IMG/VR virus record: IMGVR_UViG_3300017714_000041
Coordinates: 1 to 38,839 of that record
DNA from: a virus
DNA length: 38,839 nucleotides
Direction: 5' to 3' (one strand)
In this document: piece by piece, positions 31,103-37,691 of the stretch
How positions within the stretch are numbered: position 1 is the first letter of the stretch
Layout of the letters: the number at the start of each line of letters is the position of its first letter
The notes under the pieces: model-generated
Told to the model about the DNA's origin: nothing
What the model saw: the letters and a program-made list of their open reading frames with translations, nothing else
Database searches by the model: none
Program-made: the position numbers and the translations under genes

Positions 31103-34100
31103 ATGAGTGATTCCTTCCTAGACTTAATGGATCAGTATAGCGTTACAAAGGATGACATTCTTGCACCTAAACGTATTGAGCCGCCAAGCGTAGAGCAGAT
31201 AGATCCTACTCCTGTAAGTAGTGAGAGTGAGCTTGTTGATAAAGGTGGTAAGCTAAAGAAGAAAGACTTGTACGAAGCATCTAACTTACGCACTATTCGT
31301 AGGTACATGGTGTCTCGAAGAGGCATACAGTACAATGATAAGACTGAAGAAGATGTTGTAGAAGATTTCATGGATCACATGCGTAGCTTTAACACCAACA
31401 TCATAAACACAGGTGGCGAAGTAAGACACATAACAAATGCTAGTCAGCAAGACAAAGCAGTAGCAGGAGATGCATACAAGCTCTATGATCAGCTAGGTAG
31501 TGTGTTTGTAAACGATGGTTTCTACGGTGCAGTAGACGGTGTGTTTGATTACATTCAAGCTGCAGCTACAGATCCTTCTAACTATATTGGTCTACTTACT
31601 GGCGGTTTAGGTAAAGCTGCATCTCTAGGTATAACAAAAGGTGGTAAAGAATTAGTTAAACGTGCCGCTATAGAAGCAGGACAAAGAGCAGCGAAGTCTG
31701 GTGCAACAACACAGGGTGCTAAGAAAGCTGCAGATGAAGCAGCAGAACGAGTAGCCCAACGCATAGTAGAAAAAGGTATAAAAGGCCCTGCAGCTAAGAA
31801 GTTACAAGAACGTGTAGCCCTGCAAGAGCAGCGTAACTTTATATATAACGCCAAGAAGAAAGCACAGAAAGAGTTCTTAGATGAAAGAGCTAAGAAAGGT
31901 GTGCGTGGTTCACTGTTAGCTACCACAGGTATCGATGGATCATTAGCTATGCTGCACGACAACATGATACAGAATGTCATGCTAGATGCAGGTGCACAGG
32001 AAGAGTACAGCTTGTTACAGACAGGATTTAGTTCTGCACTAGGTCTTGTTGGCGGTGGTGCTCAACTTGTAGGTGGTAAACTAAAAGGTGTAAGTGGACT
32101 CAAAGACACTAAAGGTAAGCTTGTTGCAGGTAAACGTAAGGCAGAGCTAGAGGCTGATATTGAAGGTAAACTATTAGTACCCTTATCAAAAGAAAGAGTT
32201 AAGAAGTACACCAATGAGTTAAACGATGCGCTAGATTCTTGGGAGAAAAAACGTAATCGTGGTAACAATATGTTTCAAACAGGTGTAATGCCATCAGATT
32301 TCCTAAAGACTATTATGGTAGGAGAAGATGGTAAGGGTGGTGTTGCAAAACTATATCGTGATGAGGTAGGAAAACCTATACCTAAGAATGTACGTGTTAC
32401 AGATGTAATGACTAACACCCTAAGACAAATGCCTGAAGATGATTTACAAGCGATAGCTAAACGTATGCAGCCTTTAGTTGGATATACTCTTGGAGATACT
32501 ACAGAGATAGCACAGGAAATAGGTGACTACATAGCATCCAATGTTAGTAGAGGTATGACTTACGGTGCAGTGATGTCTCAAGTAAGAAGCACAATTGATT
32601 CAGGTCTTATTGCAGGACATAATGCAATGACTAATTTAGTGCGTAACCCACAGCTTAAAGAACAGATGGAAGAAGAGGTACTCAAGGCTACTGGGCAAAT
32701 CAAACGTCCTAAGCTAGGAGCATATACTCAAAGTGTGTGGCGTAGATTGCTTATCTCCTCACCTGCTACAACAGGTTTAAACATTGCAGGTTTCTCACAG
32801 TTTTATGTAGGTTCTACATTAGCTGATGTAGTTACAGGTAGTACCTATATGCTTGGTGGTTTAGCTACAGGTGGTAAATTTACTAAGACAGGTTCAGAAC
32901 TAATACGTAAAGGTAAAGTGTTTCATCAGATACAAGCACAGAAGATGCGTAACTTGATGGACCCATACACTACACATGATTCTTACATGGAATTTCTATC
33001 TCAGCATAAAGACATAGAGAAAGTTTTATTTGAAAGTGTTACTGGTGGTATTGAAAGATCAGGTAAACGTTTTGATATTAACCCTGATGCTAAGTGGTTC
33101 AAAGGTGTAGAAGCTGTAGCTAATGGTGCTAATCGTCTGACAGGTGTACGTGTACAAGATACGTTTACTAAGTCTCAGATGTTTATGACTGAGCTAGACA
33201 AACGGTTACGACTAAAGCATAAAGATAGAACCTTAACAGACGTGCTTAACTCAGGAGACATTGATCTAATAGATGACAGTGTAGTCGGTGGTGCTATAGA
33301 TACTACACTCAAGTCTGTATTCTCAAAAGATTACACAACAGATGATCAGCTTCTAAGAGGTGCAGCTAAGTTAACTGAAAGTATATCTAACATACCGTTG
33401 TTTGGTACAATACTTCCTTTCGGTAGATTCTTTAACAACGTTGTAGCTACATCTTACCAATGGTCTGTAGGTGGTGGTGTACAACTTATGTCTGCCATAG
33501 CTAAGTCAGAGAAGCGTAATGTAGAAACTTTAGAAGCTGCAGCACGTAGCGTAGTAGGTGTAACAGCAATTAGTCTAGCAATTAATTATGACAGAGAAAG
33601 AAGTGAAAAAGGTTTAGATGTATTTGAGATTGAGGGTACTGGTGGTGCTATCATAGATGCTCGTAACACATTCCCATTCTCTCTATGGTTAGCTGCAGGA
33701 CGTATAGGTAGACTCAGAGCAGATGGTGAAACTGTACCAAAAGAAATGATGATTAAGTTTGGTGAGCAGGTAGCTGTAGGACAACTTGCTACAGACTTAC
33801 AGTTTGGTAATGATGTAACTAGAATAATGGATACATTGATAAACCAGGATGCAGACTTAGCACAAGCTTCTTTCAAAGAGATAAGTAAGTTTACTGGTAA
33901 CTATGCTGCAGGTTTTACTAGACCACTTGATGCAGTAAACAAACTCACTGGCTATGTCACAGGAACAGATGCAGCTAGGGATATAAGGCAAGCTGAGACA
34001 GGTGGTCAGATGTTTACACAGGGTGCAACAAGATACTTTGATAACGTCATAGAAGCTATCACAGATAAAGCAGAAACAGTTTCGGGTGAAGAACTAAGGG

Positions 34101-34612
34101 TTGCATCTAGAAAAGGTAAGATACAGGATGCAAATCCTATGGCTAGGATCTTTGGTATAACAGTTAAACCTGCACGTACATCTACAGAACAAGCCTACTC
34201 TATGGCTAACATGCAAGATTGGACAGCTAGTGAACGAACAAGCATGGCAGCTTACGACACAATATTCAATGAGACTGTAGCTCCTGAGCTAGAAAGAGCT
34301 ACGGATAACTTACTAAGAGATAAGAAGTTTATAAACGCTGACCTTGTAGGTAAACGTGCTATGCTCAAGTCTGTTGTATCTGATGTAAAGAAAGACTTAC
34401 GTAAGGTACTAAAGAAGTATGGCACTAGTGAGACTAAGCTAGGTGCAATGAGAGCTAAAGCTACAGAGCATGGCAACAAAGAGTTACGTAGCAAGGCTAT
34501 GAAATCAATGAAAGAAAGATATGGGTTTGAAGGAGGTATACGTGATATGACAATCACAGAATTACATTACTTCATGGACTACGTAGATTATCTAAGAGAG
34601 TATTACAAATAA
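31103..34612 (+). CDS. Large internal virion (ejection) protein
   Basis: An 1169-residue protein, the last gene of the late operon. It is mostly helical, with a segment DPSNYIGLLTGGLGKAASLG (residues about 156-175) I recognise from the largest structural proteins of marine podoviruses. An Ala/Lys-rich coiled stretch (AAIEAGQRAAKSGATTQGAK) follows. Hydrophobic segments near residues 555-600 (ISSPATTGLNIAGFSQFYVG) and 765-785 (SNIPLFGTILPFGRFFNNVV) could enter membranes. No lysozyme motif is visible. By size, composition and position it matches ejection proteins such as T7 gp16 in role, not in sequence. The gene ends just before the terminator at 34615. Confidence 0.75.
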   Translation: MSDSFLDLMDQYSVTKDDILAPKRIEPPSVEQIDPTPVSSESELVDKGGKLKKKDLYEASNLRTIRRYMVSRRGIQYNDKTEEDVVEDFMDHMRSFNTNIINTGGEVRHITNASQQDKAVAGDAYKLYDQLGSVFVNDGFYGAVDGVFDYIQAAATDPSNYIGLLTGGLGKAASLGITKGGKELVKRAAIEAGQRAAKSGATTQGAKKAADEAAERVAQRIVEKGIKGPAAKKLQERVALQEQRNFIYNAKKKAQKEFLDERAKKGVRGSLLATTGIDGSLAMLHDNMIQNVMLDAGAQEEYSLLQTGFSSALGLVGGGAQLVGGKLKGVSGLKDTKGKLVAGKRKAELEADIEGKLLVPLSKERVKKYTNELNDALDSWEKKRNRGNNMFQTGVMPSDFLKTIMVGEDGKGGVAKLYRDEVGKPIPKNVRVTDVMTNTLRQMPEDDLQAIAKRMQPLVGYTLGDTTEIAQEIGDYIASNVSRGMTYGAVMSQVRSTIDSGLIAGHNAMTNLVRNPQLKEQMEEEVLKATGQIKRPKLGAYTQSVWRRLLISSPATTGLNIAGFSQFYVGSTLADVVTGSTYMLGGLATGGKFTKTGSELIRKGKVFHQIQAQKMRNLMDPYTTHDSYMEFLSQHKDIEKVLFESVTGGIERSGKRFDINPDAKWFKGVEAVANGANRLTGVRVQDTFTKSQMFMTELDKRLRLKHKDRTLTDVLNSGDIDLIDDSVVGGAIDTTLKSVFSKDYTTDDQLLRGAAKLTESISNIPLFGTILPFGRFFNNVVATSYQWSVGGGVQLMSAIAKSEKRNVETLEAAARSVVGVTAISLAINYDRERSEKGLDVFEIEGTGGAIIDARNTFPFSLWLAAGRIGRLRADGETVPKEMMIKFGEQVAVGQLATDLQFGNDVTRIMDTLINQDADLAQASFKEISKFTGNYAAGFTRPLDAVNKLTGYVTGTDAARDIRQAETGGQMFTQGATRYFDNVIEAITDKAETVSGEELRVASRKGKIQDANPMARIFGITVKPARTSTEQAYSMANMQDWTASERTSMAAYDTIFNETVAPELERATDNLLRDKKFINADLVGKRAMLKSVVSDVKKDLRKVLKKYGTSETKLGAMRAKATEHGNKELRSKAMKSMKERYGFEGGIRDMTITELHYFMDYVDYLREYYK

Positions 34613-34614
34613 GA

Positions 34615-34643
34615 AGGGGCGCATTTAGCGCCCTTACTTTTTT
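34615..34643. terminator. Strong hairpin terminator between convergent operons
   Basis: GGGCGC (34617-34622), loop ATTTA, GCGCCC (34628-34633), extended to 8 bp by an A-T and a G-T pair, followed by TTACTTTTTT on the plus strand. It ends the late operon. It also lies just after the leftward gene's stop (34634), where the minus-strand transcript has a weaker T-rich tail, so it may work in both directions. Confidence 0.85.
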
Positions 34644-34840
34644 ATACCATACATTTTTGATGCACGTTCTGCCCACATCTGTACTGCAATTAAATTCTTT
34701 AATGCTTCATGTGTTTCCGTACTGTAATACAAGTTATCTGAAATAAACTTTTCCAGTGCTTCACTACGTTTTTGCACACCCTCTCTGAAATGATCCTGTC
34801 TCCTAGATACAAAGTCATGCGCTTCTTTTTCTAGGCTCAT
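34634..34840 (-). CDS. Small helical-hairpin protein, possible Acb2-like cyclic nucleotide sponge
   Basis: A 68-residue, all-helical protein. The N-terminal half is charged (MSLEKEAHDFVSRRQDHFRE). The C-terminal helix STETHEALKNLIAVQMWAERA has the spacing S-x-E-x3-AL-x2-L-x2-A-x-MWA-x2-A that I associate with the Acb2/Tad1 hairpin domain (DUF7681), whose members sequester cyclic nucleotide signals of CBASS and Thoeris defence. The resemblance is short and from memory; it could equally be an unrelated helical protein. AAGGA is 5 bases before the ATG. It overlaps the upstream nuclease gene by 26 bases and is the last gene of the leftward operon. Confidence 0.6.
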   Translation of the reverse strand: MSLEKEAHDFVSRRQDHFREGVQKRSEALEKFISDNLYYSTETHEALKNLIAVQMWAERASKMYGIKK

Positions 34841-35360
34841 CTTGTTCCTTTAAGTTGTTAAGTATTTCTATTGCTGTTTCAACATCAAGCTTAGACCACT
34901 CACCTTTAGTCTTACTTGCTACCTTCCTAGCTTCTTTATGAGCAGCTTGCTCTAGTGTCCTTCTATTATCTGTCTCAACAGTATACTCTAACACAAAGTC
35001 ACGATGTGGGCTACTAGTTTGATAGCTATTACATCTATCATCAGCATCAATAGCCATGCCTATCTTTACCCAATCAGGCCAAGCAGGATTAGTTATAACA
35101 TAGACATAACCTTCTTTGATATTACCTAACTTATACGTACCCTCAAAGGCTGCATCATTAAAAGTTTTGTATCTGCCAGGTTTATACAAAGGGTGATTTC
35201 TGGATATATGTCTTCCATTTACATACATCCTCTTATCATTGTCTGCTTTCTTACAGATATTACACCAATACTTTTTTTGTTTAGCTTGTGATTCTAACCA
35301 GTTAACATTTAAAGTTAGTTTAACTCCGCAGGTATTACAACTTATACAATGTGTTTTCAT
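34815..35360 (-). CDS. GIY-YIG nuclease of the T5orf172 type with zinc ribbon
   Basis: A 181-residue protein. The N-terminus has C5, C8, C11 and C33-x2-C36, a likely zinc ribbon. Residues 84-130 are the GIY-YIG-like core: GYVYVIT (84-90), WVKIGMA with the second motif, R109 as likely catalytic arginine, and the strand DFVLEYTVE. E137 and E143 in the helix TLEQAAHKEARK are candidate metal ligands. The T5orf172 class occurs in phages as free-standing homing-type or host-degrading nucleases. No RBS of note precedes the ATG, but the next gene downstream overlaps it. DNA cleavage is expected; the target is unknown. Confidence 0.8.
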   Translation of the reverse strand: MKTHCISCNTCGVKLTLNVNWLESQAKQKKYWCNICKKADNDKRMYVNGRHISRNHPLYKPGRYKTFNDAAFEGTYKLGNIKEGYVYVITNPAWPDWVKIGMAIDADDRCNSYQTSSPHRDFVLEYTVETDNRRTLEQAAHKEARKVASKTKGEWSKLDVETAIEILNNLKEQDEPRKRSA

Positions 35361-35371
35361 ATTAATTAAAA

Positions 35372-35563
35372 TTAAACCTCCACTGGTATTTCTGTGCAGT
35401 ATGCTTGTACTGTAGATTTATCTGAAGGTCTACTTAGCATAAGGTTTTCTCTAATAGTAACTGCATTATCTTTACACTCCTTCATTGTAGGGTAAACATA
35501 ATTCATAGCTTGCACCTGAACATATCCATTACCTAAAGAAAGTATAAATACTAATACAAACAT
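35372..35563 (-). CDS. Small secreted or membrane-anchored protein
   Basis: A 63-residue protein with a hydrophobic start (MFVLVFILSLGNGYVQVQA) that looks like a signal peptide, with a possible cleavage after VQA. The mature part has two cysteines (C34 in MKECKD and C56 in AYCTEI) that could form a disulfide in the periplasm. Its ATG overlaps the stop of the preceding 56-residue gene (TAATG), so the two are coupled. Unknown function. Position in a nucleotide-metabolism and host-modification operon suggests an early envelope-directed role, for example superinfection exclusion, but that is only a guess. Confidence 0.65.
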   Translation of the reverse strand: MFVLVFILSLGNGYVQVQAMNYVYPTMKECKDNAVTIRENLMLSRPSDKSTVQAYCTEIPVEV

Positions 35564-35733
35564 TATTCAACAGGATCGTCAGTGGTTACATCTTTGATAA
35601 TGTCTACACTCTTTTCATATACTACAACTCCTGTATCCCACGATGCCTTAGCTGCAGGTTTAACTACATCATTGTAAGAACCATAGGCTGTTAAAAGAAA
35701 AACTACAGGGACTAAGATATTAAATAACAACAT
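35563..35733 (-). CDS. 56-residue membrane protein
   Basis: Reading leftward from ATG 35733, preceded by AAAGGAG with good spacing, the frame encodes MLLFNILVPVVFLLTAYGSY, a single membrane helix or signal anchor. A soluble stretch follows (VVKPAAKASWDTGVVVYEKS), with an acidic end (DVTTDDPVE). The stop overlaps the next ATG by one base. The strong ribosome site and coupling make it a real gene. I recall proteins of this type in marine phages without a known role. It is separated from the ribonucleotide reductase stop by about 60 bases. Confidence 0.7.
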   Translation of the reverse strand: MLLFNILVPVVFLLTAYGSYNDVVKPAAKASWDTGVVVYEKSVDIIKDVTTDDPVE

Positions 35734-35792: not shown

Positions 35793-37691
35793 TTATGCTC
35801 CTATATCTACCATTTCACAGACATCACCAGTACAAGCCATAGTTTGCATAGCAACTGTATTGTCTTCTTGTTCATACTCACTAAGTTTAGACCAGTCAAT
35901 ACTCTTTGGCATTATTGCTGAAAGTTTTTTGTAGTCATCCTTAGTGCAATCCTGATAGGGTGCTTGCTGATAAGTATGATCAGAGTGTGGCAGAAAAGAC
36001 ACACCACTCATTTCATCAAAGTGTTTATAAACAAATGCACCTACTTCCATCCATTCATCAGAACGAACTGTCACTGTTACAGAGGGTTTATGCTCACACC
36101 AGTGTCTTTGATAAGTTAACCATGTCTCCAGTTGCTCAATGGCTGACAAGTCGTTACGAGTTACAGCTTTATTGGGTGACTTCTGTGGGAAGCTAAACAC
36201 TGTAGTAGTATCAGGCTTCATCACACAAGGTGCATTAGGTATGCGCTGATCCTTCATCATTTGTGTAAGTGGATCTTTGTTGTCACCTCTCACAGTCCTG
36301 ATATAATGAAGTGCATGTCTAGCATGTATACCAGATGCAGAGTCAACTAGTTGTGATACTGTTCCACTTGGTTTGACGCAGGTAATTGCTGCTGAGTGTG
36401 GAATGCCAAGGCGGTCAGCCCAATCAGCGTTAGTATGAACAGCAGTTTCTCGTAAATGTTCAAGGGTCTTCTCCAATCCTTTGTTTGCGGATGTCATAAG
36501 AGGGTTATCCATAATACCAGTTAAGCTACAACCTAAGAGTCTTTCTTCTTCTGTGTTTGTTGTCCAGACTTTTCTGAGGTATGGGAACTTTGTGTACGTG
36601 CTTTGGATCGTGCCAAGTATTGTGGCGAGTCTGACTTTTCTATCCAAATCATCCACCGTGTCCGTGGCTCGTACCACAACTTCTGTAAGATTGCAGAACT
36701 GGTATGGGCGTAAGATAATCTCACTACAAGGATTAGTTCCGAACTCAAAGTTAGGATCACGTCTGCCATATTTAGCAGCTTGTTTCTTAGATGCTTCACG
36801 ATTGAATACTCCTCTCTCGCCTGATTTACTTTCTACTAAAGATAGCCACTCACGCATGAACGTTTCTGAGTCAGGCTTCTCTGTGTAAGATACACTGTTG
36901 TTAGCTAAAGCACGATGCCCTGCATTGTCGTACCACTGTCCTGACTTAGCATAACGCATACGATCATCACTAAGGTTAGACAAACTAATCATAGCACTAC
37001 GTCTAACACCACCAACTACAACTATCTGCCCAATGAAACACATTAGGTCATGGCACTCTAAGCTAGATAAACTACGTCCTTGTGCATCCTTGAATGTCTT
37101 AACTGCAAAGTTGAATAGGTCAATCAAAGGAGCAGGACCAGAGGCTCTACCACCAAATGTTTTAAGTCTTGCACCTGCAGGTCTTACTCTGCTAACATCC
37201 CACTTAGGAATCTCACCTGCCCACAAGAGAGCTAACACTTGTCTAAACGCCTTAGCCCACCCCTCCTTGCTGTCCTTTACCACAACGGTAGTATCACTCT
37301 CGAACAATTCAGGTACTTCGGGAAGCTTGCTAATGAACTGTCTCTCAACACTGAAGCCGACACCAGTACCACAGAGGAGGATGTACATAGCCTCATCGAA
37401 GGACTTTGGGTCATCTACAGGTAGATAGCTACAGTTATATCCTGCAGTATTATCTCTCTCAAGTGCTGCACCTGCAGTCATCATAGCTCTCATGCTAGGC
37501 ATGATCTCTAAGTTAAGTATAGCAAACATTATTTCATCTTTAGTATCTGCATCTACTTTATTTCCTACAACGTTTTCTATGTAGCGATCAACTGTCTCAG
37601 ACCAAGACTCTCTGCCTTTGCCATCAATGTACTTAGCGTAACGTGACTTGTGTATAAAACTTTGGTAGTCTGTTGGTAAGTAGTTATTCAT
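35793..37691 (-). CDS. nrdJ: Adenosylcobalamin-dependent ribonucleoside-triphosphate reductase (class II)
   Basis: A 632-residue enzyme that reduces ribonucleotides to deoxynucleotides for phage DNA. Landmarks fit the monomeric class II enzyme: C87 in NCSY and C333 (the redox pair), radical cysteine C322 with N320 and E324 in NPCSEIIL (the 11-residue gap between C322 and C333 matches C408 and C419 of the Lactobacillus enzyme), and a C-terminal C620-x4-C625 pair (ACTGDVC) that re-reduces the site. Shorter than the Lactobacillus enzyme (739). It needs B12 from the host. Its ATG lies 8 bases inside the end of the upstream 54-residue gene. Confidence 0.93.
   Translation of the reverse strand: MNNYLPTDYQSFIHKSRYAKYIDGKGRESWSETVDRYIENVVGNKVDADTKDEIMFAILNLEIMPSMRAMMTAGAALERDNTAGYNCSYLPVDDPKSFDEAMYILLCGTGVGFSVERQFISKLPEVPELFESDTTVVVKDSKEGWAKAFRQVLALLWAGEIPKWDVSRVRPAGARLKTFGGRASGPAPLIDLFNFAVKTFKDAQGRSLSSLECHDLMCFIGQIVVVGGVRRSAMISLSNLSDDRMRYAKSGQWYDNAGHRALANNSVSYTEKPDSETFMREWLSLVESKSGERGVFNREASKKQAAKYGRRDPNFEFGTNPCSEIILRPYQFCNLTEVVVRATDTVDDLDRKVRLATILGTIQSTYTKFPYLRKVWTTNTEEERLLGCSLTGIMDNPLMTSANKGLEKTLEHLRETAVHTNADWADRLGIPHSAAITCVKPSGTVSQLVDSASGIHARHALHYIRTVRGDNKDPLTQMMKDQRIPNAPCVMKPDTTTVFSFPQKSPNKAVTRNDLSAIEQLETWLTYQRHWCEHKPSVTVTVRSDEWMEVGAFVYKHFDEMSGVSFLPHSDHTYQQAPYQDCTKDDYKKLSAIMPKSIDWSKLSEYEQEDNTVAMQTMACTGDVCEMVDIGA

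Follow-up and report, generated by a model that had tools for sequence, protein, structure and literature searches.

Gene, operon and neighbouring features

The window, meaning the whole stretch of DNA that was analysed, is a whole virus record of 38,839 bases. On its minus strand it carries a short gene at positions 34634-34840 (stop codon included), referred to here, together with its 68-residue product, as P0001. The ORF has 68 codons, with the ATG at 34840 and the stop at 34634-34636, and it is the one ORF at the coordinates that the initial annotation had given without a strand; on the plus strand of the same interval, stops interrupt the frame read. A ribosome-binding-like AAGGA on the minus strand (34846-34850) ends 5 bases ahead of the ATG. 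Because dN/dS is low against four relatives (0.156/0.72, 0.18/1.20, 0.24/1.32 and 0.19/1.20, with dS not computable for two more distant relatives), P0001 is counted as a real gene, and it is under purifying selection.

P0001 is the last gene of its operon, as the initial annotation had said, and the operon lies on the minus strand. The order of the operon is an unknown 114-aa protein, DUF3310, MazG, a 54-aa ORF, class II ribonucleotide reductase (NrdJ), two small ORFs, a T5orf172-domain protein and P0001, and we infer early expression from this gene content. The B12-dependent (class II) reductase gene was placed at 35793-37691 (minus) by domain and homologue searches. The two small ORFs, at 35563-35733 and 35372-35563 (both minus), have hydrophobic N-termini and match no Pfam family at E≤0.01; by eye they are similar to gp39 and gp40, respectively, of Roseobacter phage CRP-2. 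Directly upstream of P0001, and overlapping it by 26 nt, a domain search found the gene of the T5orf172/MUG113-domain protein (34815-35360, minus). By eye this protein is similar to CRP-2 gp41, which lies two genes upstream of the CRP-2 hairpin gene, and in phage CRP-207 the place directly upstream of the hairpin gene is taken by an endonuclease VII.

Downstream, P0001 faces a convergent gene of 1169 codons on the plus strand (31103-34612), with named-phage matches in CRP-603, CRP-207 and, more weakly, CRP-9. Between the stops of the two convergent genes, a terminator-like stem-loop at 34615-34635, to which no strand is given, folds at -14.3 kcal/mol (z -3.5, none of 200 shuffles as stable) and has T-rich flanks. 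It should be mentioned that the region has 2 terminator-like sites compared with a shuffle average of 2.0.

Distribution of the family and its position in the genome

Scans of viral contigs for relatives of P0001 gave 17, 72, 80 (kept of 88) and 24 loci, in overlapping sets. Translation of 66 loci yielded 46 distinct family proteins of 67-68 aa, one of which is cut by the contig end, and 72 of the 5608 distinct stop-to-stop segments of the fetched loci and the window belong to the family at E<1e-10. Among 50,697 named phage records, clear homologues are present in three, all from Roseobacter phages: CRP-603 (59%), CRP-2 (54%) and CRP-207 (37%). Three further named phages have weak matches only (E 0.2-0.5). 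The plasmids searched gave no relative, and a pattern-limited scan of bacterial and archaeal genomes returned 75 candidate stretches with zero relatives among them; all relatives found come from viral contigs and these three phages. For residue-level comparison we used an alignment, A4, of 40 rows hand-picked for diversity, from which truncated relatives (e.g. L012, L089, L199-L201) were excluded.

The reductase of the window is most similar to those of the isolates CRP-2 (86.2% identity), CRP-603 (84.8%), CRP-13 (82.5%) and CRP-207 (82.1%). Because of the named-phage matches of the reductase and of the 1169-codon gene, we infer that the window phage belongs to the HMO-2011-type group, its nearest isolates being roseophages studied as that type. 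Phages of this type are described as a dominant and broadly distributed ocean group (PMC9038755). Among the matches listed in a literature search on CBASS and Thoeris in the hosts, there was no roseobacter paper by title.

The position of the gene is conserved. Of the 63 distinct family segments that are followed by sufficient sequence, 62 have the end of a long convergent ORF no more than 200 nt downstream, and the hairpin gene is the last of its operon, behind PhoH in CRP-603 and CRP-2, endonuclease VII in CRP-207 and the T5orf172 protein in the window, facing a very long convergent gene. When the operon ends of CRP-2, CRP-603, CRP-207, CRP-13, CRP-345, CRP-1, CRP-9 and HMO-2011 were examined, three of the eight had the hairpin gene; the last annotated gene of the remaining five operons codes for a different protein.

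Homology to the Acb2/Tad1 hairpin

The initial annotation had suggested an Acb2-like sponge against CBASS or Thoeris, and had named a profile match as the check, one that the P0001 sequence by itself would have failed. Searched alone, P0001 has no match to PF24729 (Acb2_Tad1_hairpin) at E≤10; a six-frame search of the virus record with this profile found no match either, and 14 control genomes were equally silent. Single-sequence searches of Pfam, PHROGs, NCBIfam and the PDB assigned P0001 to no significant family, and the name DUF7681, under which the check had been proposed, was not mentioned in the literature search. The best sub-significant matches were PF25605 (Phage_80a_gp11) in Pfam at E 0.0031, and phrog_2222 (0.0041) and phrog_1454 (0.037) in PHROGs; the last of these matches both the CRP-603 protein (4.4e-6) and Acb2 of phage T4, Vs.4 (9.7e-4).

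The profile match asked for appears at the level of the family. At E≤10, PF24729 matches 21 of the 40 family members, the best at E 0.0012 and below the curated cut-off, with single-sequence values of 0.0058 for the CRP-207 protein and 0.024 for the CRP-603 protein. Six members with tabulated matches score 13.6-17.2 bits compared with a curated cut-off of 27 bits, which places them outside curated membership; the six matches run from residues 25-32 to 59-62 on profile positions 18-25 to 54-57 of 58. When the family was compared with known hairpins by hhalign, it reached 93% against nine of them and 90% (score 35.3, 27 columns) against the eight that remain without the bridge protein described below. 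The corresponding controls were 300 column shuffles with a mean of 10.6, sd 2.2 and maximum 19.0, and a reversed alignment at 13.6. The first 19 rows of A4, mostly of the window clade, gave 35% (score 23.9) and P0001 alone 15% (score 20.6). Since P0001 itself lacks a PF24729 match and its own clade reaches 35% in hhalign, the link to Acb2/Tad1 rests on divergent relatives.

Reciprocal HMM searches gave a consistent picture, with decoys that came from related phage loci and hence are not independent. When an HMM of 12 known hairpins was run against the 5608 segments, the first decoy came at E 0.84 and 69 of the 72 family segments ranked better than that, the window segment scoring 13.5 bits at E 0.023. 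In the reverse direction, hairpin proteins made up 10 of the 11 top non-family hits of the family HMM, the bridge protein among them. The odd one was gp11 of Staphylococcus phage L-m44, in third place, which had been fetched for its resemblance to P0001. T4 Vs.4 fell just under the first decoy, and the Vibrio D60 and Rhizobium hairpins were absent from the best 13 non-family hits listed. Similarity by profile thus exceeds decoys or shuffles whichever way the search is run, which indicates membership of the superfamily by homology, though some known hairpins fail the reverse search. Against PDB sequences, family profile A1 found neither Acb2 nor Tad1, and profile A5 had Tad1 (8kbb) as its top hit at a non-significant E of 0.22.

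The bridge protein is SUFG_00048 of Sulfitobacter phage phiCB2047-B (L093:2075-2641), annotated as hypothetical and encoded next to thymidylate synthase. It has an RyR domain (E 3.3e-10) followed at the C-terminus by a hairpin that passes the PF24729 cut-off (5.4e-8), and it aligns with the family gap-free over 48 residues, to the MWA and beyond (hhalign 90%). As judged from these alignments, SUFG_00048 bridges the P0001 family and the known Acb2/Tad1 hairpins. Phage RyR-domain proteins are described in a preprint as degrading or sequestering cADPR signals and evading Thoeris (PMC13232231), and SUFG_00048 is itself a candidate anti-Thoeris protein.

By profile, then, P0001 is homologous to the hairpins of Acb2, of Tad1-type proteins and of RyR-fusion phage proteins. 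A very improbable alternative is that P0001 is a helical phage protein of some other family, for example Phage_80a_gp11, and that its hairpin likeness is convergent. PF25605 is the sole Pfam hit of P0001, at 18.2 bits below a cut-off of 27, and four of the 40 members match it; the L-m44 member (L020:1956-2201) reaches 73% in hhalign over family residues 2-34 and ranks third as noted above. The L-m44 match is limited to the N-terminal helix, however, and that protein shows no relation to the Acb2 set, whereas the hairpin is favoured by the HMM searches in both directions, by the shuffles and by the viral structure library.

Predicted structure

The AlphaFold2 model of P0001 consists of two helices, residues 3-36 and 41-64, with a mean pLDDT of 95.1 and a pTM of 0.73; a second family member is predicted likewise, with helices 3-37 and 42-65 (pLDDT 93.9). 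The helical nature claimed at the outset is borne out in the model. Predicted helix 1 is encoded at 34733-34834 and predicted helix 2 at 34649-34720 (both minus). Helix 2 carries the Acb2/Tad1-hairpin pattern of A46, L50, V53, M55-W56-A57 and R59, and the spacing that the initial annotation had noticed in the C-terminal helix does match that of the Acb2/Tad1 hairpin helix in the alignment. No strand is present in the 68-aa model, and the beta-sheet domain of Tad1 is absent.

In a viral structure library, rank 1 of the P0001 model is a 68-aa protein, 54% identical (an orthologue), and 12 of the 13 proteins at ranks 2-14 are named as Acb2/Tad1 hairpin, some of them 61-72 aa long. For the second member, this name is carried by nine of the 11 entries at ranks 2-12, and one entry is the phiCB2047-B protein. 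For both models E≤0.001 is reached at rank 1 only. In a Foldseek search against solved structures, P0001 had no hit at E≤0.001, the hairpin not being distinctive, and a PDB structure search placed Tad1 chains at ranks 13 and 41 (E 4.0 and 7.4). T4 Vs.4 can be superimposed with Z 6.9 and an rmsd of 3.8 over 65 aligned residues at 3% identity; it stands among generic hairpins, and its structural register differs from the sequence register. The two antiparallel helices, with the MWA pattern on helix 2, agree with the superfamily fold in the model, while the comparison with solved structures is non-discriminating.

Hexamer face and ligand contacts

In T4 Acb2, Y8, H11, K23, R79 and F82 contact cGAMP, and changes at L29, A66, A73 and A77 abolish both the oligomer and binding (PMC10097602). 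We transferred these residues to the family by the M-W anchor for helix 2 and by the T4/phiCB2047-B alignment for helix 1, the helix-1 register being set without coordinates and uncertain by several residues, with a shift of about 7 preferred by hhalign.

The positions that correspond to the Acb2 hexamer interface (T4 L29, A66, A73 and A77) are kept by sequence, with conservative changes counted as kept: A46 is found in 38 of the 40 A4 rows, L29 in 37, V or A at 53 in 36, and A57 in 35, with S in four more. The ligand contacts are different. Only the R79 position (R59) is kept among the published cGAMP contacts, with R in 32/40 and a basic residue at 58 or 59 in 39/40. H is absent at the H11 position (0/40), K or R occurs at 23 in 4/40, and no row has an aromatic residue at 62, so the K23 and F82 contacts are not kept. 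At the Y8 position, in a register set without coordinates, Y is found once and H seven times in the 40 rows, and nearby F10 is present in 39. A [GS][YF] pair precedes helix 1 in 11 of 12 aligned known hairpins as read by eye; SF at 9-10 occurs in two family rows (L065 and L154), most having another residue ahead of F10. The oligomer face of the family looks like that of Acb2; the known dinucleotide pocket does not. R/K14, F18, W56, G65 and K67 are found in all 40 rows, and much of the family's own conservation appears to sit towards both termini, which in Acb2 is the pocket end.

These residues bear directly on the reading of P0001 as a true Acb2 or Tad1, one that would sequester gcADPR or cyclic dinucleotides of the cGAMP type. 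The hairpin homology and the frequent R at the R79 position agree with it, and near-invariant F10, two residues off the Y8 register, could replace Y8. The loss of K23 and F82, the out-of-register Y8, the scores under the Pfam cut-off and 68 predicted all-helical residues with no place for a Tad1 beta domain make this reading quite improbable.

N-terminal motif found in several last genes

Helix 1 starts with a motif, [LI]E.EA..F, at residues 3-10 of the hairpin protein (A4; residues 1-10 are encoded at 34811-34840, minus). E6 and A7 are invariant in A4, and F10 is found in 39/40. A related motif also starts the MazG proteins of HMO-2011 (gp21) and CRP-345 (gp39), with Y or W replacing F, and it occurs within CRP-13 gp34 and the similar CRP-9 gp35, a pair of 82-83 aa that is unrelated to the hairpin protein. 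These four non-family carriers of [LI]E.EA..[FWY] are all last genes of the same operon in related phages (L211:1387-1770, L208:1094-1456, L207:1075-1326 and L210:3827-4075). The last gene of CRP-1, a MazG, is without the motif.

The motif search marked 82 of 3979 segments: 67 of the family, one truncated family member, the four unrelated last genes and ten from CRP-207-like contigs. These ten were set aside, their CRP-207 counterpart being an endonuclease I; the endonuclease I family itself has a stretch similar to the motif, and the ten were discounted for that reason. In 662 segments (67,738 residues) of related phages, the looser motif occurs seven times, compared with a mean of 0.3 and a maximum of 3 in 200 shuffles, an enrichment that is descriptive since the motif was chosen after the sequences had been inspected. 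The seven are two family members, four operon-last genes and one endonuclease I. The motif could serve as a docking tag, or be a stretch retained through swaps of the last gene. A likeness to the leader of T4 internal proteins was dropped, as the start of ipII shares just an EA pair.

Proposed function

The fold and homology behind the initial sponge call are supported by the profiles, the bridge protein and the viral structure library; identity with Acb2 or Tad1 is not established, and most cGAMP contacts are lost. We propose, with somewhat better than even confidence, that P0001 is a minimal, divergent, hairpin-only Acb2/Tad1 relative that forms a hexamer via helix 2 and sequesters an alarm nucleotide of the host defence, its ligand having changed. 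Judged by its sequence, a sponge function is plausible; P0001 probably counteracts defence as a nucleotide sponge whose ligand has changed, and would be distinct from Acb2 and Tad1 in the strict sense. In the proposed mechanism, the small-residue face of helix 2 (A46, V53 and A57) together with L29 would assemble P0001 into a hexamer, which would be a trimer of dimers of the Acb2/Tad1 type, and binding of the alarm nucleotide would keep the effector off.

The ligand would differ from the cyclic dinucleotides of Acb2 because the pocket residues are mostly changed. It could be a cyclic trinucleotide, bound at the three-fold channel common to Acb2 and Tad1, whose hexamers are described as holding cyclic trinucleotides in a similar central channel (PMC12043709). 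A hairpin-only protein could retain this channel, and trinucleotide binding is for that reason our simplest functional guess. The next guess would be a pocket rebuilt for a different nucleotide signal, at the place where conserved N-terminal residues (E4, E6, A7, F10, R14 and F18) may meet those of the conserved C-terminal tail (R59, G65 and K67).

Mere oligomerisation would be the main rival to both. Here the hairpin would be an oligomerisation module only, an assembly or adaptor factor docked to a partner via the N-terminal motif and binding no nucleotide. The family keeps the hexamer-face residues while losing most published cGAMP contacts. Its N-terminal motif is found again on unrelated proteins encoded at the same place in the operon, which is what one would expect of a docking helix. 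We nevertheless regard this as rather unlikely, as the characterised hairpin proteins, Acb2 and Tad1, are described as nucleotide sponges (PMC10097602, PMC12043709), and most of the invariant residues lie near both termini, the dinucleotide-pocket end in Acb2.

A bolder version of the hairpin-only sponge reading would combine the two ideas. Pelagic phages of the CRP-2 kind would carry a minimal sponge of 8 kDa. A helical tag that docks to a partner would have taken the place of the ligand element at the Acb2 N-terminus. In sister phages the corresponding operon slot encodes unrelated proteins bearing the tag (MazG, CRP-13 gp34), and the partner would be a common phage or host protein. With its N-terminal ligand element exchanged, the sponge would have a new ligand, e.g. 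a cyclic trinucleotide or an ADP-ribose signal. This version is speculative, and we hold it to be unlikely in full.

If P0001 binds an alarm nucleotide, it would be the smallest case of such a sponge, a hairpin working with neither an Acb2 N-terminus nor a Tad1 beta domain nor an RyR domain. If it binds no nucleotide, it would warn against calling every hairpin protein a nucleotide sponge.

Comparison with known systems

P0001 shares with Acb2 (T4 Vs.4; p26 of PDB 8h2j) the helical hairpin, the A...L..(A/V).MWA.R helix and the hexamer-face positions. The T4 protein has 88 aa, whereas P0001 has 68 with a short interhelix loop, and P0001 is without the in-register N-terminal [GS][YF] pair, K23 and F82; the start of its helix 1 is longer and bears the LEKEA motif. 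The likeness to Tad1 lies in the hairpin, 8kbb being the top PDB hit of profile A5 at the non-significant value given above; unlike Tad1, P0001 has no beta-sheet domain and hence lacks the gcADPR pocket described for it. Phage_80a_gp11 (PF25605) has a weak likeness in the N-terminal helix and no link to the Acb2 set.

Among the titles listed in literature searches there was no paper on hairpin-only proteins, and the announcement of Microbacterium phage Statler, in the part available, names a putative Acb2 without giving its domain make-up. In gp61 of Curtobacterium phage JoyLin (L205:517-1014), a 165-aa protein with the annotation cyclic nucleotide sequestering, the hairpin comes first (residues 27-78), with more sequence behind it, and the gp61 gene is followed by that of a nicotinate ribosyltransferase. 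Actinophage proteins of 80-99 aa (Arthrobacter Jasmine gp9, Gordonia Remus gp51 and Streptomyces Bing gp31) comprise little beyond the hairpin and align gap-free with the P0001 family from helix 1 onward. Unlike P0001, these proteins score above the PF24729 cut-off, and a [GS][YF]H motif precedes their helix 1. The hairpin of SUFG_00048 shares 23% identity over 48 residues with P0001 and 35% over 43 residues with the CRP-603 protein, in both cases with no gaps, within a protein of 188 aa that carries an RyR domain in addition, compared with the 68 aa of P0001.
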